Positions 23,185-44,536 of a stretch of DNA of 64,000 nucleotides are shown here, one piece after another; position 1 is the first letter of the stretch; the number at the start of each line of letters is the position of its first letter. The notes under the pieces were generated by a model. That model was not told the DNA's origin, did not search any database, and saw nothing but the letters and a program-made list of their open reading frames with translations. Where the stretch lies: NCBI GenBank assembly GCA_964017235.1, contig OZ024936.1, positions 60,563,028 to 60,627,027 of the forward strand, written 5' to 3'. Both the position numbers and the translations under genes were made by a program. Source of the stretch: Sabellastarte sp. h YS-2021 (Eukaryota > Annelida > Polychaeta > Sabellida > Sabellidae).

Positions 23185-23233
23185 CATCACCATTATGCCA
23201 GCACAAATCTTTCAGCTAAAAATTTGTGAAGGT
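23185..23233 (-). pseudogene. C-terminal tail of the DIRS F tyrosine recombinase, catalytic Tyr replaced by stop
   Basis: Reading the minus strand, the frame runs T-F-T-N-F-(TAG)-L-K-D-L-C-W, to be compared with T-F-T-K-F-Y-L-N-D-V-A-W of DIRS B. The codon of the nucleophilic Tyr is TAG (23216-23218). The rest of the YR continues after the LINE-like insertion at 27413. Confidence 0.75.
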
Positions 23234-23863
23234 TTATAAAAGCAGGAGGTCTTTTTTGTGCAGAGTGCTTAAAGCAAGAAATTTGTTTGGTTATTGAACA
23301 AACTACAGATTGAAAATTACATGATGTGAAATATAAACTACTAGTGATCATATCTGGAGTCACAAAAGGATGAATTTATAATTAATAAACTAAGAAATGT
23401 GAAACAAAAATTTCAAATTTCTTTGGTGTTAATATTATTTCGATATGGATGATTAACCATGCTGCATAGAATAACCAGTCAATAATTATCTTGATACCAG
23501 CCTGCTTTGTGGTGTGTGTGATATAAACAATCCTTTATAAAGGTACAAATTGAACCAGCAACCCTGTTAAGTAAATAATTTGGGATATTCAAGGTTGAAT
23601 AGTGCACTAGTGAACGTTTCAAAAGGTTCACAGAAAAGTTCTGCAAACTTAATCTGTATTCAGGGAAGTGAATCTACAAAACATACACATTGTTATGTGT
23701 TCACCTGTTGTTGCTATATCTGGAACACACCCAATGTATTAATTGACTTCTATGTGACACCTTTCAAACAGAGTGCATTTTGGATTGGCTTTCTTCCAGA
23801 GGGAACTGCTATTGTGAATAAGGTATTACATTTGTTTACACTTGTGGAGTATAACATTGAAAA

Positions 23864-25117
23864 ATGGACCACTGTTCTCTTGAGACCCCATATAAGAAAA
23901 GACCCTTCTTAGAAGTAGCTATTTCTCCAGAGGGAAAAGCCTCAATGGATACATCTAGCCTGAGAGAAGTCCTAGGTGATATCTTGGATGAAAAGTTGAA
24001 GGAACACTTACAGCCCATCAAAACAGAACTTGCAGAGTTTCAGAGGAATGCTCAAACTGTCAATGACAACACCTGCTCAGCAATATCCTCCTTGAGAACA
24101 GAATGTGAAAAAGCTAAAGCTGAGAACAGTCTTTTAAAACAACAGCTTCTAAAACTTGAGAGTTTCCAAAGGAGAAATAACCTTAAGATTGTTGGACTAT
24201 CAGAAAATAAAGGCGAGAACATTGAAATTGTAGTGATCTCAATGTTCAACGAATTCCTTCAGAAGCCTTATAAATTTGACGAGAGAACCCTGGAGCGCGT
24301 CCATCGCCTAGGTCCCTTTCAGAAAGGCAGTAGGAGGGATGTTCTTGCCAGATTTGCAAATTTCAAAGACAAATTAACTGCCCTCGAAATAAAAGAGAAG
24401 ATCCGAGAAAAATATGGCTTCTTACTATTTGATGATCTTCCACTGGATATTGAAAAAGCAAACAAAAAACTTCACCCGGTGCGTCAGGCCTTGAGGTATG
24501 TAAAGGAGAATTCTGACACCGACTGTGAAGTAAGGTCAGTCAGACTGAAACATGGATCCCTCATTTTGAATGGGAAAAGTTATGGAACAGATAACCTGCA
24601 TACTCTTCCACCATCTCTACAAACAGACAAACTTTTCACTGTCACGAAAGAAGGCATAACAGCTTTCTTCCGAAGCTATAGCCCTTTGTCAAACCACTAT
24701 AAATGTAGCTTTCAAGTGGGTGGAGAGACCTACACCAGTATGGAAAAATACCTGATGATCCAGAAGGCAAAATTGTTTGAGGATAGCCAGATGCTGGAAC
24801 AGATGAAGACTGAGGATGATCCGGTCAAGCTAAAGCATTTGGGGAAAATGGTCAAAAATTTCAACTCATCAACTTGGATGAAGGAAGTTGACAATATCCT
24901 TGCTGATGGACTCTACTCAAAATTTTCACAGAACAAAGACTTGTCTGATTTCCTCAGGGATACTGGGAGTAATGTGCTGGCAGAGGCCAACCCGAACGAT
25001 ACAGCTTTCTCAGTTGGTCTTCCACTGTTCACAAAAGACATCTGGAATATGGACAACTGGTGTGGCAAAAACAAATTAGGCAAGGCTCTAATGAAAACTA
25101 GAGGCACTTTGGAATAG
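23864..25117 (+). CDS. L1 ORF1-like RNA-binding protein fused to a NADAR (YbiA-like) domain
   Basis: Intact 417-aa ORF. Residues ~30-105 form a helical, heptad-rich coiled coil (REVLGDILDEKLKEHLQ ... KAENSLLKQQLLKLES). Residues ~103-255 fit the L1 ORF1/Transposase_22 RRM plus C-terminal domain (QRRNNLKIVGLSE, ERVHRLG, RRDVLARFANFKDK). Residues ~264-415 are a NADAR domain: FF-R-S-Y-S-PLSNHY, F-x-V-G-G-x-x-Y-x-S-M-E(294)-K-Y-L-M-x-x-KA, W338, KF 353-354, L-x-x-TG, LAEANPND (D379), W399-x-G-x-N-x-LG-x-x-LM-x-x-R. NADAR/YbiA proteins are N-glycosidases acting on riboflavin-pathway intermediates, and some remove ADP-ribose from guanine in nucleic acid. The usual D-x-x-WG is D-TA-FS here, so activity is uncertain. 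ATG 23864 is the first in frame; ATG at residue 28 is an alternative. Confidence 0.82.
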   Translation: MDHCSLETPYKKRPFLEVAISPEGKASMDTSSLREVLGDILDEKLKEHLQPIKTELAEFQRNAQTVNDNTCSAISSLRTECEKAKAENSLLKQQLLKLESFQRRNNLKIVGLSENKGENIEIVVISMFNEFLQKPYKFDERTLERVHRLGPFQKGSRRDVLARFANFKDKLTALEIKEKIREKYGFLLFDDLPLDIEKANKKLHPVRQALRYVKENSDTDCEVRSVRLKHGSLILNGKSYGTDNLHTLPPSLQTDKLFTVTKEGITAFFRSYSPLSNHYKCSFQVGGETYTSMEKYLMIQKAKLFEDSQMLEQMKTEDDPVKLKHLGKMVKNFNSSTWMKEVDNILADGLYSKFSQNKDLSDFLRDTGSNVLAEANPNDTAFSVGLPLFTKDIWNMDNWCGKNKLGKALMKTRGTLE

Positions 25118-25128
25118 AAAAATTGCAA

Positions 25129-27400
25129 TATTTTGTATGTGATAACTTAAAACTTTCAAACCTGTATTTGAACCATTTGTGTTAGTACTTAATATGCTTT
25201 TTGTACTTCCAAATACCATGTAATTCAATATTTTGCTTTGAGACAGTTACAATTTTTCATATCAAGAAAGTCAATAATTTGATTTGAGACGGACAATACA
25301 ACAAGTCTAAAGATAATTAGTAATGACATATAATCTGTTTACCTGAGACAGCATAAAAGTAATGTTATGTATTGATCAATAACTGTCTGACATATATATA
25401 GTATCATATCACATAGCAAAGTTGTATACGACTGGTTATACTTTTTTACACCTGTTTAAATTAATAGAATCATTCTTTACTGTATCTTTATTACAGTATT
25501 AATTTCTTAACTAGAGTTACCTTTTGAGATTTCTTCGTTTGTACAATTAATAAGTTGACCCAAAATATCTCTGTACAGAATGGGTTTCTAACTGATTAGA
25601 CTAATGTTTTAAAGCTCTAATGAAACTTTAAGACATTTTGGAATATACACAATGGTTATACAATGCATTTAATTGCTGTTTTATCAAAAAATTTGGTGTC
25701 AGTACTAAAAATACTTTAGATTTTCAAAGACATTGTAGTTAAATGTCTTAAATGTGTTTGAGTGATAACATATTTTGTATGTGATAACTTAAAACTTTCA
25801 AACCTGTATTTGAACCATTTGTGTTAGTACTTAATATGCTTTTGTACTTCCAAATACCATGTAATTCAACATTTTGCTTTGAGACAGTTACAATTTTTCA
25901 TATCAAGAAAGTCAATAATTTGATTTGAGACAGACAAATACCATGTAATTCAATATTTTGCTTTGAGACAGTTACAATTTTCCATATCAAGAAAGTCAAT
26001 AATTTGATTTGAGACAGACAATATAACAAGTCTAAAGATAATTAGTAATGACATATAATCTGCTTACCTGAAACAGCATAAAAGTAATGTTATGTATTGA
26101 TCAATAACTGTCTGACATATATATAGTATCATATCACATAGCAAAGCTGTATACGACTGGTTATACTTTTTTACACCTGTTTAAATTAATAGAGTCATTC
26201 TTTACTGTACCTTTATTACAGTATTAATTTCTTAACTGGAGTTATCTTTTGAGATTTCTTCGTTTGTATAATTAATAAGTTGACCTAAAATATCTCTGCA
26301 CAGAATGGGCTTCTAACTGATTAGACTAATGTTTTAAAGCTCTAATGAAACTTTAAGACTTTTTGGAATATACACAATGGTTATACAATGCATTTAATTG
26401 CTGTTTTATTACAAAAATTTGGTGTCAGTACTAAAAATACTTTAGATTTTCAAAGACATTGTAGTTAAATGTCTTAAATGTGTTTGAGTGATAACATATT
26501 TTGTATGTGAAAACTTAAAACTTTTCAAATCTGTATTTGAACCATTTGTGTTAGTACTTAATATGTTTTTTGTACTTCCAAATACCATGTAATTCAATAT
26601 TTTGCTTTGAGACAGTTACAATTTTTCATACCAAGAAAGTCAATAATTTGATTTGAGACAGACAATATAACAAGTCTAACGATAATTAGTAATGACATAT
26701 AATCTGCTTACCTGAGACAGCATAAAAATAATGTTATGTATTGATCAATAACTGTCCGACATATATATAGTATGTATAGTATTTGAACCAATTGTGTTAG
26801 TACTTAATATGCTTTTTGTACTTCCAAATACCATGTAATTCAATATTTTGCTTTGAGACAGTTACAATTTTTCATACCAAGAAAGTCAATAATTTGATTT
26901 GAGACAGACAATATAACAAGTCTAACGATAATTAGTAATGACATATAATCTGCTTTACCTGAGACAGCATAAAAATAATGTTATGTATTGATCAATAACT
27001 GTCTGACATATATATAGTATCATATCACATAACAAAGTTGTATACGACTGGTTATACTTTTTTACACCTGTTTAAAATAATAGAATCATTCTTTACAGTA
27101 TTAATTTCTTAACTGGAGTTATCTTTTGAGATTTCTTCGTTTGTATAATTAATAAGTTGACCCAAAATATCTCTGTACAGAATGGATTTCTAACTGATTA
27201 GACTAATGTTTTAAAGCTCTAATGAAACTTTAAGACATTTTGGAATATACACAATGGCTATACAATGCATTTAATTGCTGTTTTATTACAAAAATTTGTG
27301 GTGTCAATACACCTTTATTACAAAAATTTGGTGTCAATACTAAAAATACTTTAGATTTTCAAAGACATTGTAGTTAAATGTCTTAAATGTGTTTGAGTGA
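25129..27400 (+). repeat. Three tandem copies of the ~640-bp 3' region of the NADAR element
   Basis: Units begin at about 25129, 25771 and 26497 with ATTTTGTATGTGA, and each ends TTAAATGTGTTTGAGTGA. Copy 2 has an internal ~85-bp duplication (near 25930), and copy 3 has a partial restart at ~26778. Copies differ by only scattered substitutions. Confidence 0.85.
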
Positions 27401-27428
27401 ATTACTATTCTGAAAAATTTGTGAAGGT

Positions 27429-28600
27429 CGAATGGCTTCTCCAAAAACAGGAAGCCATAATCTCATCCAAAGCAACTCCTCCCTTAAAAGCCAAAGAGGC
27501 AGCCAAAGCTCTAACCTCATGTGCCTTGACTTGGGAAACATTTTGAACCTCCTGATCAGACTTTTGGTATGCCAAAACTGCTTAATCCAAGATGATATAG
27601 TAGCCTTTGAAATATCTTTTGAGTAGCCCTCCTTAATAGCCACAAAAAGAAGCTTCTTGCCTTTCCTGAGATCCTTTGTCTTATCAAGATAATATTCTCA
27701 AGGCTCTCACTGGACAAAGAGACTTATCTGCACCAAAGATGTGTCTAAAGTGGGTTTCAAAGCAGGAATGACCACAGGTTGAATAGTCAAAGGACCCTCA
27801 GAAGCCAACTGATTTTTAGCTATGAATGCAGTTGGAGGTGAAAAGGTAACTTCTGACAAGTCCCTTTTCCTACTGAAGGAGTCAAAAGTCCAAGCATGAA
27901 TTTCACTATGCCTCTTACCCGAAGCCAAAGCCATTAAGAAAACTGTCTTAAAAGTCAAAATCTTAAGATCAGCTTTCGCCAAAGGCTCAAATGGTGGTTG
28001 AGTGAAGGCAAGTAAGACCAAAGACAAGTCCCAATTGGGAATAGCCCTATTTGCTGAAGGTCTGTCCCTATGAAAGCTAGCAATCAAACGATTCAAGTCC
28101 AAACTCTGAAAAACCATTTGACCTGCGGAGCCTGGACCATCTGCTACTGAAGTTCTGTAACCACCAATAGTTCTGGGTTTCAAGTTCTTATCAGTAAAGA
28201 GATAATTAAAAAAATCAGCTATTTGAGGAAAAGTTGGTTTGGTGACATACACCTGATTCTCCTGGGGCCACTTTTGAAATATGGCCCACCTTGAATCATA
28301 CACTTGTCTTGAGGATTCTCTCTGAGGTGCCTTAATTCTATCTGCCACCTCAACAGAGAATCCTCCTTGACCTTCCTGTAGGAGTCCAGATACCACGCAT
28401 GGAGATTCAGATACTCCAGATTCTTGTGGAATCTGAGACTGAAGGGTTGGTTCAGGAGATTGTGCACTTGAGGAAGCCTCAGTGGAATCTTGGCTGACAA
28501 CTCCACCAGATCCCAAAACCAAGGCATCCCTGGCCACCCTGGTGCTATCGCAATGACCCTGCAACTGTAGGTGATCATTTTCTGAACTAACTGGGGCAGG
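27429..28600 (-). pseudogene. DIRS F tyrosine recombinase, main part
   Basis: The frame 27707-28756 gives a long stretch. Its first half is the RNase H-YR linker read out of frame, then the YR N-terminal part (FFNYLFTDKNLKPRTIGGYR) and LMALASGKRHSEIHAW with the first catalytic Arg. After a frameshift near 27700 the frame continues as VSQVKAHEVRALAASLAFK (H-x-x-R), then ASCFWRSHSTFT, where the 4.2-kb insertion cuts in. The final catalytic segment is at 23185-23233. The His before Trp is Phe here. It would encode the recombinase integrating circular cDNA; it is inactivated by the insertion, the frameshift and the Tyr codon change. Confidence 0.8.
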
Positions 28601-29300
28601 ATGGCCACTGGACAAAAGGCATAGGCGTCCAGAGCCTCCCAAGAGATGTTCAACGCATCTATCTGCCAGGCCTTCTCGTCTGGGACAGGAGATACGTAAG
28701 TTGGAAGTTTGGCATTCAAGCTGGTGGCAAACAGATCCACCATTGGTTTGTGCCAAACTTGGCAGATTTCTCGAAAGACCTGAGGGTGCAGATCACTCTG
28801 TCTGACTGGCTCTGTCCCTCCTGGATAGGGAATCTGCTATCACATTGAGATTCCCTGGCATATGTCTGGCTCTGATATGGATCTCCCTGGCATTGCACCA
28901 TGCCAGAATTCTCCACATCAATGTACACGTTTCGAAGGAGTGAGTGCCTCCTTCCTTGTTGATATAGGAGACCACAGTTGAGTTGTCTGATGAAACTAGC
29001 ACGACTTTTTTGCCACAATTGTTTTTGAAAACGTTTTAGGGCTAGAAAAACAGCTTTCAGCTCTAAAGTATTGATATGCAAATCTTTTTCCGATTATTGC
29101 CAAACCCCACTTATAGTACAATTGCTCAAGTGGGCCCCCCAACCCTTCTCTGATGCATCTGTGAACATCAACATATTGTGTTCTCACTGATGCAGATTCG
29201 AACCCTTGACTACGTTCTGAGGATCCATCCACCAAGCAAGATGGTCCTTTATCAGTTGAGAAATTGGGACAATTTTGTCCAGGCCCCTGATCTTAATCCT
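28601..29300 (-). pseudogene. DIRS F RNase H domain, frameshifted
   Basis: The frame at 28793-29002 contains SSDNSTVVSYINKEGG and ARHMPGNLNVIADSLSR. Neighbouring frames give INTLELKAVFLALKRF, F-T-D-A-S-x-K-G-W-G and LAWWMDPQNVVKG. These are the RNase H Asp/Glu/Asp motifs and the conserved segment linking it to RT, which is itself missing beyond ~29300. At least two frameshifts. Confidence 0.75.
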
Positions 29301-30363
29301 TGTTCGTGAATACTGCCCCTGATTTCTTGACTTGACGCCAATGCGGACGCCAATGCCGCAGAGTGACGACATAAAAATGATTATATGAGTTTTTTTACAC
29401 AATTTCCAAATGCAATCTTTAATCAACAAGAACACATATATTTTGCAAAGCTGTGATAAGTAATGGCAAATATGCATACTAATGTTTACCTGGAATTTGC
29501 TCAGGGACAAGATTCGCTTGCATTTCAATAATTGATGCATTACCAAATAGACGGGAATATCATCTAAGGTGCTGATTGTCCTAAAAATGGATAGACCTAC
29601 AGAGGGAAGGAGGTCAACACCAAATATTAGCATCCATAAGTGGAATAGCAGTTTTGGTAGTGTTAGCGCAAGTCTGAAAAGGTAAGTTTTTTGTTTGTAT
29701 TTGAATGAAGCAATTGTCGTTTATGACATGCTTAAAGGTGGAAATCTATTCAACTTAGGTGATGCCATAACTGCATAATTCTAGCACTGACTTGTCTGTG
29801 GACACCAGCAATGATCTGTTGCCATGACACCCATGGTTAAGCCATATTATGTGTCTAGTAAGGTCATCTTCAATAATGGTGACATAAAGAGGCACTTGGC
29901 ATCATATCATTGTGATTGTAATTTCACAATGCAATTGCAAATTTTATGTTTTGGATCATATCCAGTGGGTATGTGTACATTTACAACAATGTTAAAATGT
30001 ACTAAATTTGATTTTTATCAGTTCATATTTTGTGAAAAATTTAAATTTCTTCACTACTGGTGTATTTTCTAGTCAGAATGGCACTGAATGAATACTTTAC
30101 AGTCTTGACGGTTTCACAACACTAAACATCAGTTTTATGGAAATGAGGATATTTTGATGATCCAACGAGTAGGAACAATGGTAAAATGTGTCAACTTTGA
30201 TTAATATCTGTGTACACACTGGTATTTTGTGAAAAGTGTTCGTCACTACTTGTTTATTCTCCAAACAAAATTGCACTGAATGAATACTTCAGTTGACACT
30301 CTGTCACAACACTATAATGCCATCAGTTCTGTTGTGGTAAGGGTATTGTGAAAACATCTTGGT
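29301..30363. other. Non-coding interval between DIRS F and DIRS C
   Basis: No gene seen. The AT-rich sequence replaces the RT/Gag part of DIRS F. Short open frames have no domain. Confidence 0.4.
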
Positions 30364-30520
30364 CAAAGTCAAAGTTGGCGTCTTATGTCCCGTTCAACAG
30401 CCAGGGTCATACTGGGACAGGTCCTCAGCATTGTCACTTGTTGGACTCAAACCTACACAGAGGTGACAGCCTGTGATTAAATGCCAAACTTGCTAACCAC
30501 TAGGCCACTGAGGACCTCTG
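30364..30520 (-). mobile_element. tRNA-derived SINE (second family)
   Basis: On the minus strand: A box TGGCCTAGTGGTTAGC, B box GGTTTGAGTCC (30443-30453), then a tail containing GACCTGTCCCAGTATGACC. A diverged copy is at 2707-2795. Confidence 0.65.
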
Positions 30521-30811
30521 TGAAAACCTCTTGGAAAATTGCTGATATTCTGATGCAACTTTCATGTGGCGACTTATTTTATTGTCTATCTGGTTTCAAC
30601 GCAATGAAACTTACCATGTGGAACTGAATGCTTTCTCGGGAGGTCGCAGGCATCCGGCCAACGTCCAGAAAAATAGACATTTAGTATTGACTAGATCCCC
30701 GTGCTCAGAGTGAACCATAACAGTGTAATCTCACGTCTAACCCTTCTTCTCTCATTGTAAATTTGGCCCATACCCCCTCAGCTGAAATACAATGGGGAGG
30801 GACTCTCTTCA

Positions 30812-30910
30812 GTTCCACATGGTAAGCTTGTAGTTTATAAAAGCTGTATTTAAGTAATTAAAATTTTCAATTTTATTGTGCTACAATAGCTTACCATGTG
30901 GAACTTAATG
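30812..30910 (-). repeat. Internal complementary region of DIRS C
   Basis: GTTCCACATGGTAAGC and GCTTACCATGTGGAAC face each other around TTCAATTTTATTGTG (AATT 30869-30872). Confidence 0.87.
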
Positions 30911-31281
30911 CTGAATCCAACCACCCGGCGGAGGGATTACAGCTGAGACTGGAGAATAGTGAATTTTTCTTGGATTGAATAAATAAATAAATAAAATGAA
31001 CAGTTGAAAAAAAACCAGTCTGAGTCCCGCTTACAGGGCCCCAATTCTGAAAATCGGACCTATAAGAAGCCAAAAACCAGAAGATTAATGAATGACAGTA
31101 CAGATACTGTCTGGATGTTTTGATTGAAGGGTTAAGTGCAGCCGTGCTCACTTATGCGAGTATAGCCCCCAAGGACATCACTGTAATGAATACCAGCCCT
31201 AAGCTTGAATCTCATTAACTTGCCACCCTAAATATGAGATTATGGTACACTGAAAGACTTAATACATTATACACTTAAATA

Positions 31282-31485
31282 CAGAAATGATAGATAAGAG
31301 ACCTTACCATAACATCCTGAGGAGGTAACCAATACCTAGACTCCTGAAGACTTGGCTGCAGTGGATGTGCCCCATCACAGAAATGATAGATAAGAGACCT
31401 TACCATAACATCCTGAGGAGGTAACCAATACCTAGACTCCTGAAGACTTGGCTGCAGTGGATGTGCCCCCCCCCCCCCCCCCCCC
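31282..31485 (-). repeat. 95-bp tandem duplication ending in a 20-bp poly(C) run
   Basis: AGAAATGATAGATAAGAGAC through GCAGTGGATGTGCCCC occurs twice with near-identity (31282-31376 and 31377-31470). The second copy runs into C20 (31466-31485). It lies in the 3' untranslated part of DIRS C. Confidence 0.88.
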
Positions 31486-31628
31486 TCTTCTTTTCTTTCC
31501 ATGGATGAGCAGTCTGACGGGAAGGGTCTAGGACTGAGCAGTCTGACGGGAAGGGTCTAGGACTCTTTGTGCCACTACTACTGGTCTCAGATACATATTG
31601 GTGCTGTTGTCTGACCAAATAAGGTATT

Positions 31629-32750
31629 TTATGTCAAAATTTGTAAATGTGTTGTGAGCTTTCCAGTGACATGCTTGCATGATTTGGTCGACCGATACCC
31701 CACCGTAAAAGGCCTTAGAGGCCGCAAAGACTCTAATGTCATGCGCTTTGACTTGGGACCAGGTCCAAGGCTTGTTGGTCTGCTTATTTGTAACAAAGTA
31801 GAATGGTTTGTTTGGGCCAAGAAGAGAGTGTAGCAGGTCTGATGTTTGAGGTATGTCCTTTCTTAAAGGAGATAAAGAGAAGGCATTGAGACCCTCTTAG
31901 GTCTTTGGTTCAATCCAAATAGTACCTCAGGGCCTGTACCGGACACAAGGTCCAGTCTTCTTTGAATTGTCTATCTACAATGGTAGTCAGAGCAGGAATA
32001 GTCACTGGAGACAGACTTTGAGAACCTTCTCTTGCTAGTTGGTTTTTGGCTATGAAATCTGAAGAGGGGAACAAGCAACCTTTTCCCATTGGCCTAGATT
32101 AGATACTTTGTTTGCAAACCCAGCATGGATTTTGCTGCAGCGCTTGCCGGAGGCCAGAGCTAGCAAGAAAGCAGTTTTGAGGGTAAGATGTTTGAGGTCT
32201 GTGTCTTTCATAGGTTCAAAGGGTGCTTTTGTGAGCTCATTGAGTACAACAGAAAGGTTCCATTTAGGAAGATTCCTGGAACTTTTTGGACAATCCCTGT
32301 GAAAACTGGCGAGTAACCTGTTAAGGTCTAAACTTTGAGAAATATGAAGCCTGTTTTGCCCAAGGTGTCAACAATAGCCGTCCAATAACCATCAATGGTC
32401 GAAGAGTGCATGTTTAGGTCTTGGTACAGGTACATGAAGTCTGAGACTTGCTTTACAGAGGAAGTGGAGAAATCCACTGAATTTTCTCTGCACCATTTCT
32501 CAAATAGGCCCCACTTTCACTTGTAGATGGTCCTTGTTCATGACCTCTTAGGGGCAGCAATTCTCTCTGCCACCTCCACAGAGAAGCCTTGTTCTTAGAT
32601 CTGTTCACTCCTAGAAGAGTTCTTGACACAGGTAGTTGAAGTGGGATATCTGTTGAGAGGTACACTAGGTCCCAAAACCAGGGCATCTCTGGCCAGCCTG
32701 GGGCTATTACAATGATCAGACAACTGGATTGCCTGATTTTTTGGATCACC
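31629..32750 (-). pseudogene. DIRS C tyrosine recombinase with Tyr-to-Asp change
   Basis: The minus strand near 31630-31750 reads SQVKAHDIRVFAASKAF (H-x-x-R), then QACHWKAHNTFTNF followed by Asp-Ile where other copies have the nucleophilic Tyr. The codon is GAC instead of TAC. Upstream frames show the first Arg region (LALASGKRCSKIHAG-like, ~32120-32160) and the linker motif PGWPEMPWFWDLVYLS (32600-32740). Frames shift several times. It cannot be catalytically active as read. Confidence 0.78.
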
Positions 32751-32783
32751 CTGTGAAGGAAAGTCGTGGGAGCGTAAGCATAA

Positions 32784-33371
32784 TTAAGCAGTGAGAACTG
32801 ACCAGTTTATGTTCAGAGCATCTATGTCCCAAGCATTTTGGTCTGGGACTGGAGATATGTCGAGTGGAACTTTGTGGTCTAGATCTACATGAGGAGTGAA
32901 CCACTTGTGAGAGATCTGTTTGAACACCTGCGGATGCAGTGACCATTCTGTTGACTGAACTTGGTTCGACCTGGACAGGTCGGCCATCGCATTCAGACAC
33001 CCTGGAATGTGTCTGGCTTTTAAGGTTATCTGGTGAAAATGGCACCAGGTCATGATCTTCCACAGGAGAGCGAACATCTCCACTGAGTGAGTTCCTCCTT
33101 GTTTGTTTATGTAGGCTACCACTGTTGAGTTGTCAGTAGCAACCAACACCGTTTGGTTTTGACACTGGTTCTTGAACTTTTGAAGGGCCAGAGAAACCAC
33201 CTGCAGCTCTAGAACATGTAGCCTTTTTTCCCCGTTTGACCACAGACCCTTTGTAGAGGCTTGCTCTAAGTGCCCGAGCCTACGTTTGAGGTGTCTGTAA
33301 AAAGTTGGATACTGTGGTCTTTGGGATGAAGGTCTACACCTTTCATCACGTTTGCTGGATTCTGTCACCAC
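32784..33371 (-). pseudogene. DIRS C RNase H domain, nearly open
   Basis: The 195-aa frame includes RLHVLELQVVSLALQKF (Glu motif), VLVATDNSTVVAYINKQGG (Asp) and LKARHIPGCLNAMADLSR (H-x-P-G and the last Asp). The linker towards the YR follows (VPLDISPVPDQNAWDIDAL). The first Asp (TDAS) lies just upstream in another frame. This is the best preserved RNase H in the window. Confidence 0.8.
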
Positions 33372-33779
33372 TCTAGGTGTGCTGAAATGGTTTTATGTTC
33401 AAGGAAGGAGACTGTCAAACGACTGAGGAAATCTCCAGTGCTACTTGAGGTGAAACTGAAAGGGCGTCATGTGAAGGCATCCCTCTGGGACCATTTTCTC
33501 CATTGAGGCAAGCAACCCAATTAGTGACATCAAACATCTTGCAGTCAAAGCATGTTTTGACTTGAGTTGTAGGATCAAATCCTGAAGTTTGAGCCATCTC
33601 TCTTGACAGGGTTTTTACAAGGGCTGAATCTAGATGGTATTTGTAGCCCTTGAATGAAAACACTTGAGTAGGTTTTAGTTTGGACTTCTCCTGAATTATT
33701 ATCCACCCTAAGGACTGATTAGGTCTACCACTGTCTGAGTGTTCACTTGTGCTTCTTTCTGAGACTGCGGCCTGATAAG

Positions 33780-34649
33780 CTAATCATCTAGGTACTGGTG
33801 AAGTCTCATTCCCCTTGTCAGGGCCATCAGCTTCATTTCTTTTACAATCATTGTAAATACCTGAGGGGCCGTGGCTAGCCCGAAGGGAAGGGAGGTGAAC
33901 TGGAACACCTGTGACTTGTGGCAAAACTTGTGGTACTTCCTTAAATTTTGGTGGATGTGGATGTGAAGGTTGGCATCTGATAGGTCTATTGAAGACCATT
34001 CCCCTGGAATCAGAGAGGCCCCGATGGACTCTGGTGTTTCCATTTTGAACCTTTCTACAAGTAGGAAGGTGTTGAGCCTGCTTAGGTCTATTACTGCCCT
34101 CCACCTTTGGTGAGGCTTGGGTACAAGAAACAGATGACTGTAAAACCTGAGAGGATTTACATTTTCTTCCCTTTGTATTGCGCTGACTAAATTTGGTTTT
34201 GAGATGAATGGAAGAACGTAACCATTGGTGATAAGGTTTAACACGTTGTCTGAACATTTGTTTGTTAGCCAGTCTCTTCTGAAAGAACGGAGGCGACCTC
34301 CTACTGGTGGACTGAGGGAGGCTTTTAAGGAGTCATTGGGGAGAGGGGTTTCCATGCCCTCGCCCCTTGAATGGGGTGGAAAATGACCCCTGAAGCCTCT
34401 GTTGTTCGATTTGCCCCTACCTGAGGAAAACGATTGATTAACGCTTTGGGAGGAATTGCCCCCATAGGGGCATTTCCTGTAGGAGCCTCTTTTCTTATTG
34501 TTGTGGGGACCACGAAAGGGCTTGTTTTGATAGGGTCCAAAACCCTGTGAATCTTTGGGGGTGCCTCTTTTAAGGAGGAAGTCTTCTCCATACTTGACTG
34601 TGACTTGAACAGAGAAGGCCAGAAAGGCGAATTCCTCAGTTCTTGACAT
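33780..34649 (-). pseudogene. DIRS C reverse transcriptase, stop directly after YLDD
   Basis: The 289-aa frame opens with a Gly/Arg/Asn-rich basic stretch (end of Gag or linker). Then follow GGRLRSFRRDW, HLFLVPKPHQRWRAVIDLSR, SSIDLSDANLHIHI (first catalytic Asp), SLPFGLATAPQVFT and HQYLDD, in RT order (fingers, palm motifs A-C). The codon after YLDD is TAG (33780-33782) where other copies have Trp. The RT is otherwise intact and is the best in the window. Confidence 0.85.
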
Positions 34650-36168
34650 CTATAGCCCCTAGATTTGGTTGAAGGAGGGTCATCTTGGCCTCGCGTCTTA
34701 GCAGGCCAGTGTTGCCAATGGTATAGAGCTCCCTCTGGAGTATGTGGGCTACAGATTTGCTGAGGCAGGCTAAGACTCTCTGTTGAATAAGACTTCTCTT
34801 ATTCATAATCTCAAAATAGTCACATGCATTTTCATAGCCACACCTGGCAGCTCTTTCAGGATCGGCACCCTTCTGAATCTGGCTTTTAACCCTCTTAAAG
34901 ATAGCCTTGATACTGTGCTGACACTTCTCCATAACAGTATTACAAGCAGAAAGCAGTCTGCGAAAGTAGCTGTGAAACTGATGGCAGAGAGATTCTGTCT
35001 AGTTTGGTGTTCAAGTTCCTCGAGAACTTGTAGGGAAACCTTGTCCATAGGGGCCTTAGAGGGCTCAGGAGAAATACAGATCTTGGCAGAATCTGTATGG
35101 AGCTCCTGAAGTTTGTCTTCAAAACAAGGTTGTCCCACCTTGTAGTATTTTGTTGTTGAAGCAGGGGGTTTGATATATTTACCCTCAGGTAAATTAGAGG
35201 CCAAGAAATCCTGTTCAAACTTCTCAAAAGCATCTTTGAGAATGGGATTTAAAGGGAGCATAGCTGAAGGGCCTCTTGGCCTTCAACCCTGTTGGCCTTT
35301 CTCGTCATCCAGGCCTAGCACAGTGGTAGAGGACCTAGGCAAAGTTTCCCTGGGGTCAGGGAGATCAAGAATGTGCCTAAAAGTTTCCACTTCCTCTGCA
35401 TATTGTGAAGGGAGGTCAGACATGTCTACCTCCCTGTAGAACACTGGGTCTTTGCAAACCTGTTGTTGATCATGTTCAGGAGCCTGTTGAGGTTTAGCAG
35501 ACTTCTTAATAGGGACAGAGTACTGACCCTCCTCTGAAGAAGACGACTGAGAAAAGTATTTTGCCCGAACTTTGTGTTTTTTCTTGTCAGACTGCTTTTT
35601 GGCTTTGGAACACACCCTTTTAGGTTGTTCCAAGTGGTCCTCGGAATGAGTATCCGAGTTGTCAGATTCAGGATCCGAGTGCTTGGAGCCATGGTCGGAC
35701 TGAACACCTTGAGTAAACTTTGGTGGAAGGGAAGGACCATATAAGTCCATGTCCATGGTCCAGGTTGAGCATCCGAGTGGTCAGATCTGAAGTCTGAGTG
35801 GTCGGGTCTGGTTGTTTACTTGGTCCAGCTTTAGACAAAGAAGCGGAGGTCTTAACTACATCTGTCTCAGAGGATTTTTTCATTGAATGCATTTCGTCTT
35901 GGAGAGACTTCATAGCCTCCAGTATAGATGCTTGAAAGACCCCCATTTGCTGTTGGATGTTAAATTGATTACCCAGGGATTTCTGTAGTCTACTCTCTAT
36001 TTTATTATGCAAGGCAGTAACTGGGGTTGGGGGGACAGTTTGAGGAGTCCTTAAAGACAAAGACTCGAAACGTAAGGGTTGGGGGCATGGAGGAGATGAA
36101 AATAAATTATCAGCAGCACCCTCAAGGTCTGCTTGAGAGCCAGAAAACGCCTCCACATCATCCCCCAA
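34650..36168 (-). pseudogene. DIRS C Gag-like region
   Basis: Three successive minus-strand frames (35668-36168, 35283-35756, 34803-35261) form one Gag reading split by frameshifts. The first has ~60-80 residues of helix-rich sequence (NQFNIQQQMGVFQASIL). The middle is acidic/basic low complexity (SDHGSKHSDPESDNSD; SKAKKQSDKKKHKVRAKY). The last carries EVDMSDLPSQYAEEVETF and KYYKVGQPCFEDKLQEL. A close relative of the middle part is at 61698-62460. No enzymatic motif; assigned by position. Confidence 0.65.
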
Positions 36169-36714
36169 TAAGTCCAGATCATCATCTTTACTAGTATTGC
36201 AGGGATCGGATACCTTCTGTTTTCTTATATATCTATGTCTGTGCTTGATTTTTATTTGTTGTTCTTCAGTAAAATAAGAAACAAAAATGCCTGCATTTAG
36301 AAAGATGTGGGCTTTGCACTCGTTTGGTGGGAAGACAATTTTACTGCTATAAAATCCGAGTCGAAACAGAGAAAACTCACAAACAAGAAATATTCAAAGA
36401 ATACTTATCCTGCATCAAACTTTGTCAGAATAAACTATGACACAAAATAAAATAAATGGCTGAAATATAACATCTAACAATATGTATATTCTGAGAAAAC
36501 AGTAAATAAAGTAAGCTTATTTTAAACGCTTGCTAGTCATGCAGCCAACGAGAGAAGGAGAGTTTGACACGAGATTACACTGTTATGGTACAATCTCAAC
36601 ACAGGGACCCGGTCAATACTAAACATCCATTTTTCTTGGACGTTGGCTGGATGACTGCGGCTTCCAAAGAAAGCATTCAGTTCCACATGGCAAGCTATTG
36701 TAGCGCAATAAAAG

Positions 36715-40596: not shown

Positions 40597-41160
40597 ACAT
40601 CTGTCTCTGTGAAAACTATCCAGGAGAAGAGTGAGATTTTCATCTTTGCTTATGATATTAATGGGAGAGTTCCCCAGTTTATCAACAATGGCTGACCTGT
40701 ATCCATCAATGGTACTATGCTGCAACTTCCTGTCCTGAAAGAGGTACATAAGGAACTCAGCAAATGACTTTACAGGGGGTGCCCTAAGTCCACCTGATTA
40801 GTGAGGCACCATTTTGTAAAAATGGTCCACTTTGCTTCATAGACTAATCTGGTTGATCTCTGTTGAGGGGCCTAAATTCTTGCTTCCACTGCCTCAGAGA
40901 AGCCCTGCTCCTTGATTGTTGAGGCTCTAGGAGCCATGCATGGAGATTCAGATTTGTCAGATTTCTGTCAGGGATCTGATTGAAGGGCTGTGTCAACAGG
41001 TTGGACAGGTTGGGCAGACTCAGTGGGATTTGGCTGGACATGGCCACTAGATCCCAGAAGCAAGGCATGTTGGGCCACCCCGGAGCAATCAGAATCGGGG
41101 AGTCCAGAAAGTTCTCCACCACTTTGCCCAAGATGGCTGCTGGTGAGAAGGCATATGCGT
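40597..41160 (-). pseudogene. DIRS D RNase H-YR linker and YR N-terminal remnant
   Basis: The frame ending at 40844 contains AFSPAAILGKVVENF, APGWPNMPCFWDLVAMS and QPFNQIPDRNLTNLNLHAW, the linker shared with copies B, C and F. Below 40800 a decayed YR N-terminal part follows. The catalytic half is deleted. Confidence 0.65.
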
Positions 41161-41538
41161 TAGTGGTCGGACCAGTTATGAAAATAAAAACCTGTTTTCG
41201 GTGCTTTGAAACCAAACAAAATCCAGGATTTCGAAAGTGTGCAGAGATATGATAACAAATTTTATGCGAGCGTACATGAGCTGTATTATCAAGAGGAAAT
41301 ATGCATTCGCAAGATATTTTGAACTTTATAAACTTCATTTACCATGAATATAAAGTGCAAATGTAAGTTGTTTCCTCAAATATATACGTTCTTTATTGTT
41401 TTTACGAAATATTAACCTGTAGAAAGCCTAATATAATGAAGTTTTCAATAACCGGTTCTTAAATATTCTTTGCGGATTTCGTCATTTCTACCTAAACAAA
41501 ACGAAAAACGGTATACCGGTTTACCATTCACACCACTA
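41161..41538. mobile_element. hAT-like non-autonomous element, 378 bp, in DIRS D
   Basis: Ends TAGTGGTCGG and CACACCACTA, with 8-bp flanks ATATGCGT (41153-41160) and ATATGCAT (41539-41546), a 7/8 match. The 8-bp duplication and TAGTG ends fit hAT. Removing it rejoins the RNase H-YR linker DNA. No transposase. Confidence 0.72.
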
Positions 41539-41546
41539 ATATGCAT

Positions 41547-42333
41547 CCAGATCCTCCCATGGCAGGCATGAGTGCATCCTCTGCTGAGGCCAGGGGATCC
41601 AGTACCGGTGACACAGAGGTAACTTGTTGCTGAACCTCGTGGCAAAAAGGTTATTTGGGGCCGGTGCCACCTGCTGCATGTTGTTTGGAAGACGTCTGGA
41701 AGGAGAGACCACTCTGTTTGGATTGTCTGGCCTAGCCTGGATAGCTTGTCTGCTACCATGTTCAGCCGGCCTGGAATGTGTCAGGCTTTGAGAGTCACTT
41801 GTTTTCTGGTACACCAGGTCAAGATTCTCCACAGCAGGGCACAAAGTGGGCCCGACCTCATGCCTCCTTCCTTGTTTATGTATGACACCATTGTGGTGTT
41901 GTCAGTTGATACAAGAACTATCTTGTCTGAACAGAGATCCTGAAACTATTTTAAGGCTAAAGAGACTGCTTTTAGTTCCAGATGGTTTATATGCAATTTT
42001 GCTTTCTGGAAGGGGCCAGGTTCCTCTTGCAGTGTGCTCGTTTAAGCGAGCACCCTACCCTTCTTTAGATGAGTCTGTAAAGATCTGCAGGACATATGTT
42101 ATTGGGTGTAATGGTTGACCTTGAAGCATGTTGTCTTCTTCCAGCCACCATTGTAGGTGGGAGTGCAGTGATCTGGGAATAGGGATCACTTTTTCTAGAG
42201 ATTCCGGTACCCTCCAGTTGTTCTTGAGATGCCACTGTATGGGTCTCATATGCAGTCGGCCGGAAGGGATAGCAGTGTCAGTATTTTTTTTTGAAGATTC
42301 TGCCACCAGTCCGGTGTGGGTCGTACCCGACAC
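41547..42333 (-). pseudogene. DIRS D RNase H domain, frameshifted
   Basis: Frames give LQIFTDSSKEG (first Asp), MVADKLSRLGQ (last Asp) and, between them in a third frame, a V-D-x-T-T-x-V-S-Y-I-like stretch. Upstream is LHMRPIQWHLKNNWRV, shared with A. Confidence 0.7.
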
Positions 42334-42870
42334 GACTTGAGGTCAAACTGGTAGCCTATAAAATTCAAAATTATGTTTTGGCTCCAGCTCTGATTTTTTC
42401 TAAATTCACCAGCCAACCCAGTTGTTGACACATTTTTACCAGATCCTGTGTATGCTGGAGAGACTTGGTGGAACTTGGCTGTCACCAACCAGTCGTCTAG
42501 GTACTGGTGGATCCTTATACCCTTGTGTATGGCCATCAGTTTCACCTCTTTTGCTACCAGTGGACTCTATGGATGCTGTGGACAAACCGAATGGCAGAGC
42601 CTTGAACTGGTATGTCCGAACTTGGATGTGAAATCTCAGATATTTCCTGGACTTTTCCTGTATTGGTATATGGAAGTAGGCATCCTTGAAGTCTATTGAG
42701 GTAACCCACTCCCCTTGTCGGAGGGAGGTTCTGATGGTTTCCGGTATCTCCATTTTGAATTTTTGCGCCTTGAGGAAATGGGTCAGATTGTTCAGGTCTA
42801 GTATGGGTCTCCACTTGTGGCTGGTTTTGGGCAGCAAGAAAAGTTGGTTGAAAAAAACCTAGAGATCTTT
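42246..42870 (-). pseudogene. DIRS D reverse transcriptase, two frames
   Basis: The frame 42436-42837 has KTSHKWRPILDLNNLTHF, VTSIDFKDAYFHIPI (first catalytic Asp) and FKALPFGLSTA. The frame 42246-42545 continues with GIRIHQYLDDWLVTAKF (catalytic YLDD) and FIGYQFDLK (motif D/thumb). A frameshift near 42550 separates them. Fingers and palm are otherwise complete. Confidence 0.82.
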
Positions 42871-43133
42871 TATTTTGTACCAGCTCGGCTGTGTCTTTGT
42901 CCATAAGCTGATGCAATGCCTCTAACAGGTAGAGGTTCCTGTGACGATTGGCATAGGAGCTTATGATGGTGGGTGACCTATTCTCCCATCTATGCAGGGT
43001 TTCCTGTGATATCCGGCGTGAAGCAGGTGTTGAAGAAGATGAACCAGGCTGCCTAGCAATCCTACTGTAGCTACTATTTAGTTTACTGGCATCAGTGTTC
43101 CAGGATGAGACGGCTGAGGGGTCAACTTTATGG

Positions 43134-44369
43134 TCAGAAAACAGCCCATACCACTTGGATTGTAACTTTGCAGGTCTCAGGAACTGATCTCTCATCAAGG
43201 CCACTGGCCTCTGACATATGGGAAGGATAATCTTCACCCAGAATAACATTCAGTTTAGACAGCTTTCTGCATAACCAATCCTCTGTTGGCATCTGGACTA
43301 ACACCTTGCCGGGAACTGGAGCCTTCGGGCCGGCAAAGGGGTTGTCAGCCATGTTGCTAGTTGAAGTGTCCATATCTGGGATGTGGGATCAGCCCATATA
43401 GGAATAAATGCCTCTCATAGTCTCTATGTAGGTCTGTTCCTGAGAAATGGACTGGTCCGGTTCAGTAAGGGTAGCATCTTGACCATCTGACAGTTCCCCT
43501 TCCTCCACATACAGATCCAGAGGGGGGTTGATTGGAGATGTCACTTTCCGCCCCAGAACTCAAGCTGGAGATACTGTCCTTCCTAGATCTGTGTAAAGCA
43601 GGAGAGTCGGTGCGGTCAGATTTGAAGATTTGGGTCGGTCGGTGTGAAGTTGGTCGGTTTGGAGCTGGCTGGTAGACTGATGCTTCTTAGCAGAGAAGTC
43701 TTTTCCAGTGCGCTGTGAAGAGGAAGATCTTGGTCGGTCGGTACCAGTCTGGAGCTGGCTGGTAGACTGATGCTTTGCAGCAGAGAAGTCTTTTCCAGTG
43801 CACTCAGTAGTAGAAGATCCCTGTCGGTCGGAACCGGTCTGGAGCTGGCTGGTAGACTGATGCTTTGCAGCAGAGAAGTCTTTTCCAGTGCACTCAGTAG
43901 TAGAAGATCCCTGTCGGTCGGAACCAGTCTGGAGCTGGCTGGTAGACTGATGCTTTACAGCATCAGTGCCTTTACCAGTCCACTCTGAAGAAACAGCAGG
44001 TGACTTAGCTGGATCAATGAAGGGTTGAGTATCCTTGGCCATGATTGCTGGAGGTGAATGTGTAGGGGTTACCTTAACAGTTCCAAAGGTGGATTCAAAA
44101 GTCCTGGCCATGAGAAGGGCCTCCAAGCGATTAAATCTATCCGACCATTTCTGATCCAACTCTGCTATCTTGGAGTCTGTGGCTGATTTGTCAGATATAA
44201 CAGTTTTACTTTTAGAAGTGGAAGGCTTGTCTTTCTTCAGTTTCTTGGTAGAGGGCTCACTGCCAGAAGGGGATTGCAAATCACCCTGAACTTTCACAGC
44301 ACCAATTACTGAAACAGTGGCTGGATCAACTAAAGCAGAACTACTGTCTTTACTGGGAGTAGATTCCAA
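43134..44369 (-). pseudogene. DIRS D Gag-like protein with in-frame 30-aa repeats
   Basis: The frame 43560-44369 (269 aa) starts MESTPSKDSSSALVDPA. It has a Lys/Ser-rich stretch and a helical segment (LDQKWSDRFNRLEALLMART), then four tandem repeats of about 30 residues with core KDFSAAKHQSTSQLQTGSDR. After a frameshift it resumes at 43134-43373 with DWLCRKLSKLNVILGEDY. Position upstream of RT marks it as DIRS Gag (RNA packaging). Confidence 0.7.
43659..43985 (-). repeat. 90-bp tandem repeats within the DIRS D Gag
   Basis: Units with GAGCTGGCTGGTAGACTGA and GCAGAGAAGTCTTTTCCAG repeat every 90 bp, about 3.6 copies, preserving frame. The central two are almost identical. Confidence 0.9.
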
Positions 44370-44536
44370 TGTCTTCCTTCACGTTTCTCTTTCTTTATTT
44401 GATAAGAGGGGGTAGCAAGTTGACAACGCTGTTCTTCAGTAAGATTATTAAACACTCTGTTTTTTTTCTGACATTTGGCAGGCCAGTCTGCGCCGACCAG
44501 ATTAGCAATTTTTCATTGGATAGGATGTATTAGCGC

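Follow-up and report, generated by a model that had tools for sequence, protein, structure and literature searches.

The window, by which we mean the whole stretch of 64,000 nucleotides that was analysed, was found to contain a gene of 417 codons which almost certainly encodes the ORF1 protein of a recently active LINE of L1 type (probably of the Tx1 clade), and in which a NADAR domain is joined to the RNA-binding protein. This ORF1-NADAR fusion is real, recurrent and selected, and its kind has, as far as we have seen, been noted once in print. The relevant features of the window are listed here by position.

23218 to 23230, forward strand: 5' target-site duplication AAAAATTTGTGAA, possibly with GG in addition (the first two bases of the element); the exact 13-mer is repeated at 27413.
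23231 to 27412, forward strand: LINE insertion with a complete 5' end, ORF1 and a repeat spacer, stopping before ORF2.
23864 to 25117, forward strand: ORF1-NADAR protein, 417 amino acids and a stop (open frame).
23954 to 24172, forward strand: coiled-coil helix, residues 31-103 (DSSP on the AlphaFold2 model).
24173 to 24604, forward strand: RRM and CTD of LINE-1 ORF1p type, approximately residues 104-247.
24674 to 25111, forward strand: NADAR domain, residues 271-416 (fold match 253-417).
25128 to 27412, forward strand: non-coding spacer after ORF1, partly made of repeated units of approximately 0.6-0.7 kb and common to sister copies (self-matches).
27413 to 27425, forward strand: 3' target-site duplication, the second copy of the 13-mer.

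An earlier note, made from the sequence, had described an ORF1 protein fused to a NADAR domain in one uninterrupted frame of 417 amino acids, and this was borne out by the frame itself, by profile matches and by structure prediction, in which a single confident AlphaFold2 model spans both the RNA-binding half and the NADAR half. The order along the chain (from the model, DSSP and fold comparison) is coiled coil, RRM, CTD and NADAR, the first three standing in the order of L1-type ORF1 proteins and the last having the YbiA fold of the NADAR superfamily. The NADAR assignment held in profile searches, with scores of 126.2 bits for PF08719 (curated cut-off 35.1) and 111.4 bits for TIGR02464 (cut-off 73.7). 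The same note had described the first half as a coiled coil and an L1 ORF1-type RNA-binding region, a description which stood by fold and failed by HMM search: the structural match to the L1 ORF1p trimer starts at residue 59, while the Pfam L1 ORF1 profiles (Transposase_22 type) gave no match to the window protein at E values up to 1, and the protein therefore has the L1 ORF1 fold without being filed under that Pfam family. Human LINE-1 ORF1p (PDB 2yko), which is 16% identical to the window protein, differs from it in having no NADAR domain, and the YbiA-type NADAR of Phytophthora nicotianae (PDB 8bau) and YbiA of E. coli (PDB 2b3w) are not LINE ORF1 proteins, unlike the window NADAR, which is part of one.

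The window protein was used as query against the assembly holding the window (1.786 Gb in 647 contigs) and at least 102 genomic matches were identified (from 100 scored of 2610 candidates), so the fusion is not a single-copy oddity. Among the matches listed, 43 of 102 cover at least 400 of the 417 residues with no stop, which was our rule for an intact copy (47 of 102 when the stop rule is dropped); 75 are free of stops and 27 are decayed copies with stops. Identity to the window protein among these matches, which lie on many chromosome-sized contigs, runs from 100% down to 35%, a spread which shows that several ORF1-NADAR families coexist in the genome. Loci L002-L006 are 98.3-99.7% identical to the window DNA over 2.7-3.4 kb, and L007 is 98.1% identical, which is the mark of a recent amplification of the window family. 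In the protein database 27 relatives of the window protein were found, 25 of them with a precomputed NADAR domain, and a divergent query added 8 further relatives (NADAR annotation in 6); P0005, P0006, P0009 and P0010 are identical or nearly identical to own-genome families in the tree described below. When the RNA-binding half was the query, the protein search returned 5 matches, all of them close relatives with NADAR (5 of 5), distant NADAR-less ORF1s being outside its reach. No relatives of P0001 were found in the viral contigs scanned.

Residues E294, K301 and E374 of the window protein correspond to E43, K50 and E125 of the Phytophthora NADAR, and W338 and D379 to W89 and D130; equivalents of all five occur in each of the 21 own-genome copies that were aligned. 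E43, K50 and E125 are positions whose equivalents in the E. coli C7 NADAR have been reported to matter, E125 being the glutamate that marks the YbiA subfamily and the K50-equivalent lysine of C7 being essential for efficient hydrolysis (PMC11543638); the E125 position is D in BC4488 and H in phage NADARs (PMC11543638, PMC11125620). The earlier note was right that most landmark NADAR positions are kept and that F stands for W in the D-x-x-W-G motif of the window domain: the 21 own-genome copies have F, Y, D or C in place of this tryptophan (W133 in Phytophthora numbering), and the window NADAR also has V at R93, S at D86 and K at R79. The 33 rows of alignment A1, taken from 36 proteins (P0027, with no ORF1 half, and P0035 and P0036, with no NADAR, being left out), have E43 in 32, K50 in 26 and E125 in 31 cases, the E125 exceptions being P0020 (K, with its tail out of register) and P0014 (a gap, with no NADAR end). 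The R93 equivalent is R in 0 of 33 rows and the D86 equivalent is D in 1 of 33, and both are kept in 0 of the 21 own-genome copies.

Six of the 33 rows (P0013, P0019 and P0029-P0032) have I, L, M or Q at the position of the lysine, and all six keep both glutamates, W89 and K75. They form one clade with 100/100 support in a tree of 28 of the 33 rows (P0002, P0014, P0018, P0020 and P0022 left out) and 8 of the 21 own-genome frames, in which three long branches (P0025, P0026 and P0028) are of unsure placement. The conservation of the two halves was compared in 20 of the 33 rows, 15 of them outside the lysine-loss clade and five of the six within it (P0019, which has a short start, was omitted). 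Within the clade, 10 of 10 pairs show stronger conservation of NADAR than of the RNA-binding half; for the 15 other rows this holds in 78 of 105 pairs, and in 15 of 33 when divergence is matched. The domain has thus outlasted the loss of the standard catalytic lysine, and the constraint on these NADARs means that hydrolysis of the C7 kind is not needed everywhere. No other observation speaks as strongly against an account by enzyme activity alone as the lysine-loss clade, which provides a natural experiment that separates catalysis from binding.

The account that we favour, and which we hold tentatively, is that the ORF1-borne NADAR may clear ADP-ribose adducts from the RNA or cDNA of the element, a role which the earlier note had suggested together with the countering of a host defence of PARP type. 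L1 ORF1p coats its own RNA as trimers, and ORF1-NADAR, to judge from its fold, would trimerise on the element RNA in a similar manner, placing several NADARs in each ribonucleoprotein. These would act as N-glycosidases which take ADP-ribose, or a related ADP-ribosyl or NAD-derived adduct, off guanine in the element RNA or cDNA, and reverse transcription would thereby be unblocked despite a host ADP-ribosyltransferase or damage; we infer both the step from fold to activity and the step from activity to benefit. It has been reported that guanine-linked ADP-ribose is hydrolysed by NADARs, including a eukaryotic one of YbiA type (PMC11543638), and that the guanosine ADP-ribosylation made by ScARP is reversed by a myxobacterial YbiA (PMC11125620). 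The recurrence of NADAR in other mobile elements, namely a virus-like element of the same genome and a Gypsy lineage of Ectocarpus (PMC12477816), also favours this account. That a guanine transferase of CARP-1 type is the host opponent, an idea prompted by the N2-guanine ADP-ribosylation of DNA reported in six edible clams (PMC11209040), is speculative for the present host. Counting against the mechanism, de-ADP-ribosylation alone had no antitoxin function against DarT1 in tests in E. coli (PMC11125620). Also speaking against catalysis is the replacement of the W133 equivalent in 21 of 21 own-genome copies, since by spacing (our own mapping) this position corresponds to W346 of nematode SNA-3, which was among the residues mutated in that protein for their homology to N-glycosidase residues of YbiA (PMC9303266). 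The near-total absence of the R93 and D86 residues from the aligned rows counts on the same side. Scabin-like (pierisin-type) guanine ADP-ribosyltransferases were sought in the host genome with 0 matches; the control likewise matched nowhere, and the result speaks for neither presence nor absence. An active domain would mean that animal LINEs bring with them an eraser of nucleic-acid ADP-ribosylation, and would in turn suggest that this modification serves as a host defence against retrotransposition, a proposition that is directly testable. The physiological role of animal NADARs has been described as unclear (PMC11125620), and fusion to a LINE ORF1 gives some of them a concrete context.

The main rival to ADP-ribose removal is docking without hydrolysis, in which the NADAR would serve as a binding or assembly module that attaches the ORF1 particle to ADP-ribose, to NAD-capped or cap-bound RNA, or to host RNA-processing proteins; we rate it as unlikely, while taking it seriously. 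The 10 of 10 pairs of the lysine-loss clade in which the NADAR half is the more conserved favour such a module, as does nematode SNA-3, which requires its NADAR domains and contacts the cap-binding complex and the SL1 snRNP (PMC9303266). A pure scaffold, however, would not need the E43, K50 and E125 pattern found in all 21 own-genome copies aligned, and in the six lysine-loss rows themselves both glutamates and W89 persist. SNA-3 also supplies an argument on the other side, as its function is impaired by mutation of catalytic-type residues, an effect for which its authors allow that folding may be responsible (PMC9303266).

A further alternative to ADP-ribose removal from nucleic acid, that the NADAR substrate is a small molecule, seems to us improbable. 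It draws on the removal of riboflavin-pathway intermediates by bacterial and plant NADARs (PMC11543638) and on the proposal that viral NADARs act on soluble derivatives of ADP-ribose, in which the NADARs of animal RNA viruses are set apart as likely acting on macromolecules (PMC9503650). In the LINE families aligned, however, the NADAR is part of a protein that coats RNA, an arrangement more in keeping with a nucleic-acid target, and the D-x-x-W tryptophan that has been linked to the N-glycosidase activity of YbiA is the residue replaced in the own-genome copies.

The insertion in the window could be delimited at both ends. The 13-mer AAAAATTTGTGAA occurs in the 64 kb twice on the forward strand, at 23218 and 27413 only, and never on the reverse strand, and it thus provides the target-site duplication at both ends that is the mark of target-primed reverse transcription. 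The 5' end GGTTTATAAAAGCAGGAGG (23229-23231) is common to L003, L004 and L024, copies whose flanks differ. Self-matches of the spacer begin at 25128, 25770, 26496 and 26779, and homology between the window and L031 ends at approximately 27414, where L031 continues towards its ORF2. Given the duplications at both ends and the shared 5' end, the window copy is a 3'-truncated insertion which begins at that 5' end and breaks off within the spacer. A tblastn search of the window with pieces of ORF2 gave no match; this copy could thus supply ORF1-NADAR but would be unable to move on its own.

An ORF2 with endonuclease and reverse transcriptase domains was identified downstream of ORF1 in three of the five regions read (L031, L034 and L035). 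All three matched Exo_endo_phos and RVT_1, and zf-RVT as well (below the cut-off in L034); they share 46-57% identity with one another and lie approximately 3.2 kb (L031), 1.2 kb (L034) and 3.2 kb (L035) from ORF1, as read off the coordinates. Each is frameshifted as read, and that of L035 also runs off the stretch. The reverse transcriptase piece of L034 matched human L1 ORF2 with an E value of 8e-52, compared to 8e-17 for R2; an APE endonuclease with a reverse transcriptase nearest to L1 ORF2, as in LINEs of the L1 superfamily, is therefore present downstream of related copies and absent from the window copy. The element is probably a LINE of the Tx1 clade, an assignment made by analogy with PMC12477816. 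The ORF2 downstream in L033 is of L1 type but more distant, with 30-32% identity to the other three, and is possibly part of a different element, while no ORF2 was found in the downstream region of L032. The spacer between ORF1 and ORF2 is long in these LINEs, at approximately 1.2 to 3.2 kb, and in the window family it consists partly of tandem units.

The window copy, having an intact open frame and no ORF2, might on its own be taken for a host gene, but that the 417-amino-acid genes are domesticated is very improbable. This reading was rejected on the 13-bp target-site duplications, on the number of dispersed, near-identical copies with unrelated flanks and on the related ORF2s downstream in three of the five regions read; the decayed copies with stops (27 of the 102 matches listed) also speak against it.

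Selection was examined with 21 frames of the genome itself, in 22 chosen pairs. Most families are saturated with synonymous changes relative to one another, and the values given for these are pS and pN: for the window family against L009, pS was 0.787 and pN 0.201 in the RNA-binding half, against 0.804 and 0.206 in the NADAR half, pN being approximately a quarter of pS in both. For L009 and L012 the dN/dS ratios of the two halves were 0.09 and 0.11, and the NADAR half, for which the earlier note had singled out dN/dS as informative, is accordingly under purifying selection, as is the RNA-binding half. Pairs of nearly identical copies differ at too few sites for a ratio to be interpreted (L001-L006, ratio of 1.14 in the RNA-binding half from 5 changes; L001-L002, 0.57 from 3). 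The similar pS and pN and the low dN/dS of both halves indicate that the lineages that moved have, in these pairs, conserved both halves, NADAR and RNA-binding, with equal strictness. An assembly or annotation artefact, or a chance read-through of two genes, for which no supporting evidence was found, has next to no probability and is refuted by the same fusion in database proteins from other contigs, by its many genomic copies on chromosome-sized contigs at 35-100% identity and by the selection on both halves, in addition to the one confident model that covers them.

The best genomic NADAR matches are not LINE ORF1s. Among 150 scored NADAR places (2705 candidates), the top 38 have frames of 167-179 amino acids, with a stop inside the match in 3, and among the 30 loci fetched (L036-L065) the DNA in common with L036 extends past the gene in 29 of the 29 others. 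The free-standing NADAR at L066:6833-7333 matched PF08719 with an E value of 1.3e-49, and the free-standing frames printed have the canonical DTVWG motif. Two copies of this element are 99% alike over more than 8 kb and have a 166-bp tandem repeat array. Frames for a dUTPase, a deoxynucleoside kinase and an rve integrase lie downstream of the free NADAR (L066, L067, L068 and L069), a gene set which we take to be a Maverick/Polinton-like make-up. A frame of 1206 amino acids in the element has no Pfam match and a short endonuclease VII match in PHROGs, and resembles a polymerase by eye only; neither a polymerase nor a capsid was confirmed in the element, which is unrelated to the LINE, virus-like and Maverick/Polinton-like.

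It is conceivable, if doubtful, that the NADAR is a counter-defence cassette captured repeatedly by unrelated mobile elements, in one genome both as a LINE ORF1 fusion and as a free gene of a Maverick/Polinton-like element, the host ADP-ribosylating the nucleic acids or complexes of these elements and one LINE clade having swapped the catalytic lysine. Two unrelated elements of one host with a NADAR are what such a role predicts, and two cases are few. Were it true, there would be a layer of host defence against transposons which works by ADP-ribosylation of their nucleic acids or complexes.

In several Tx1 LINE families of Crassostrea gigas (Repbase) the ORF1 appears to contain a NADAR of the YbiA family, for which the authors suggest processing of RNA intermediates (PMC12477816), and a NADAR-bearing LINE ORF1 is therefore already in print. 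The Crassostrea case shares with ours the joining of a NADAR to a LINE ORF1, a likeness by description only; in the accessible text of that paper it occupies one sentence, with no analysis of fold, selection, active site, ORF2 or insertion. To this we add a fold for the entire protein, the finding that both halves are under selection, a clade in which the lysine is lost, a linked ORF2 and target-site duplications. The NADAR in Pol of a Gypsy lineage of Ectocarpus (PMC12477816) is also part of a retrotransposon protein, but the element is an LTR retrotransposon, and both the protein and the lineage are different. SNA-3 is an animal RNA-processing protein with NADAR, but it has three such domains and is a host gene with no retroelement (PMC9303266). 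Besides PMC12477816, no report of NADAR in a LINE was found by title or start of abstract among the matches listed, and no paper was found that joins ADP-ribosylation, LINE-1, ORF1p and macrodomain, most subscription papers and bioRxiv preprints being outside both searches. NADAR was absent among the matches listed for Maverick, Polinton and adintovirus, and by title nothing on the topic was returned for DUF1768 and transposons.

Some further proteins and remains were observed. P0035 (Actinostola sp., 281 amino acids) is related to the RNA-binding half, has no NADAR annotation and is possibly an ORF1 of the pre-capture type; P0036 is another ORF1 relative with no NADAR annotation. In P0027 (346 amino acids) a NADAR is joined to a macrodomain (PF01661), giving two ADP-ribose domains in one chain. 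Other retroelement remains lie on the minus strand of the window at 27707-36393, beginning shortly past the 3' duplication of the LINE insertion, and at 40844-44378; they are DIRS-like by eye only, and include matches to RVT_1 at 33783-34649 (E 1.2e-6) and RVT_3 at 32787-33371 (E 2.9e-4), both slightly below the Pfam cut-off.
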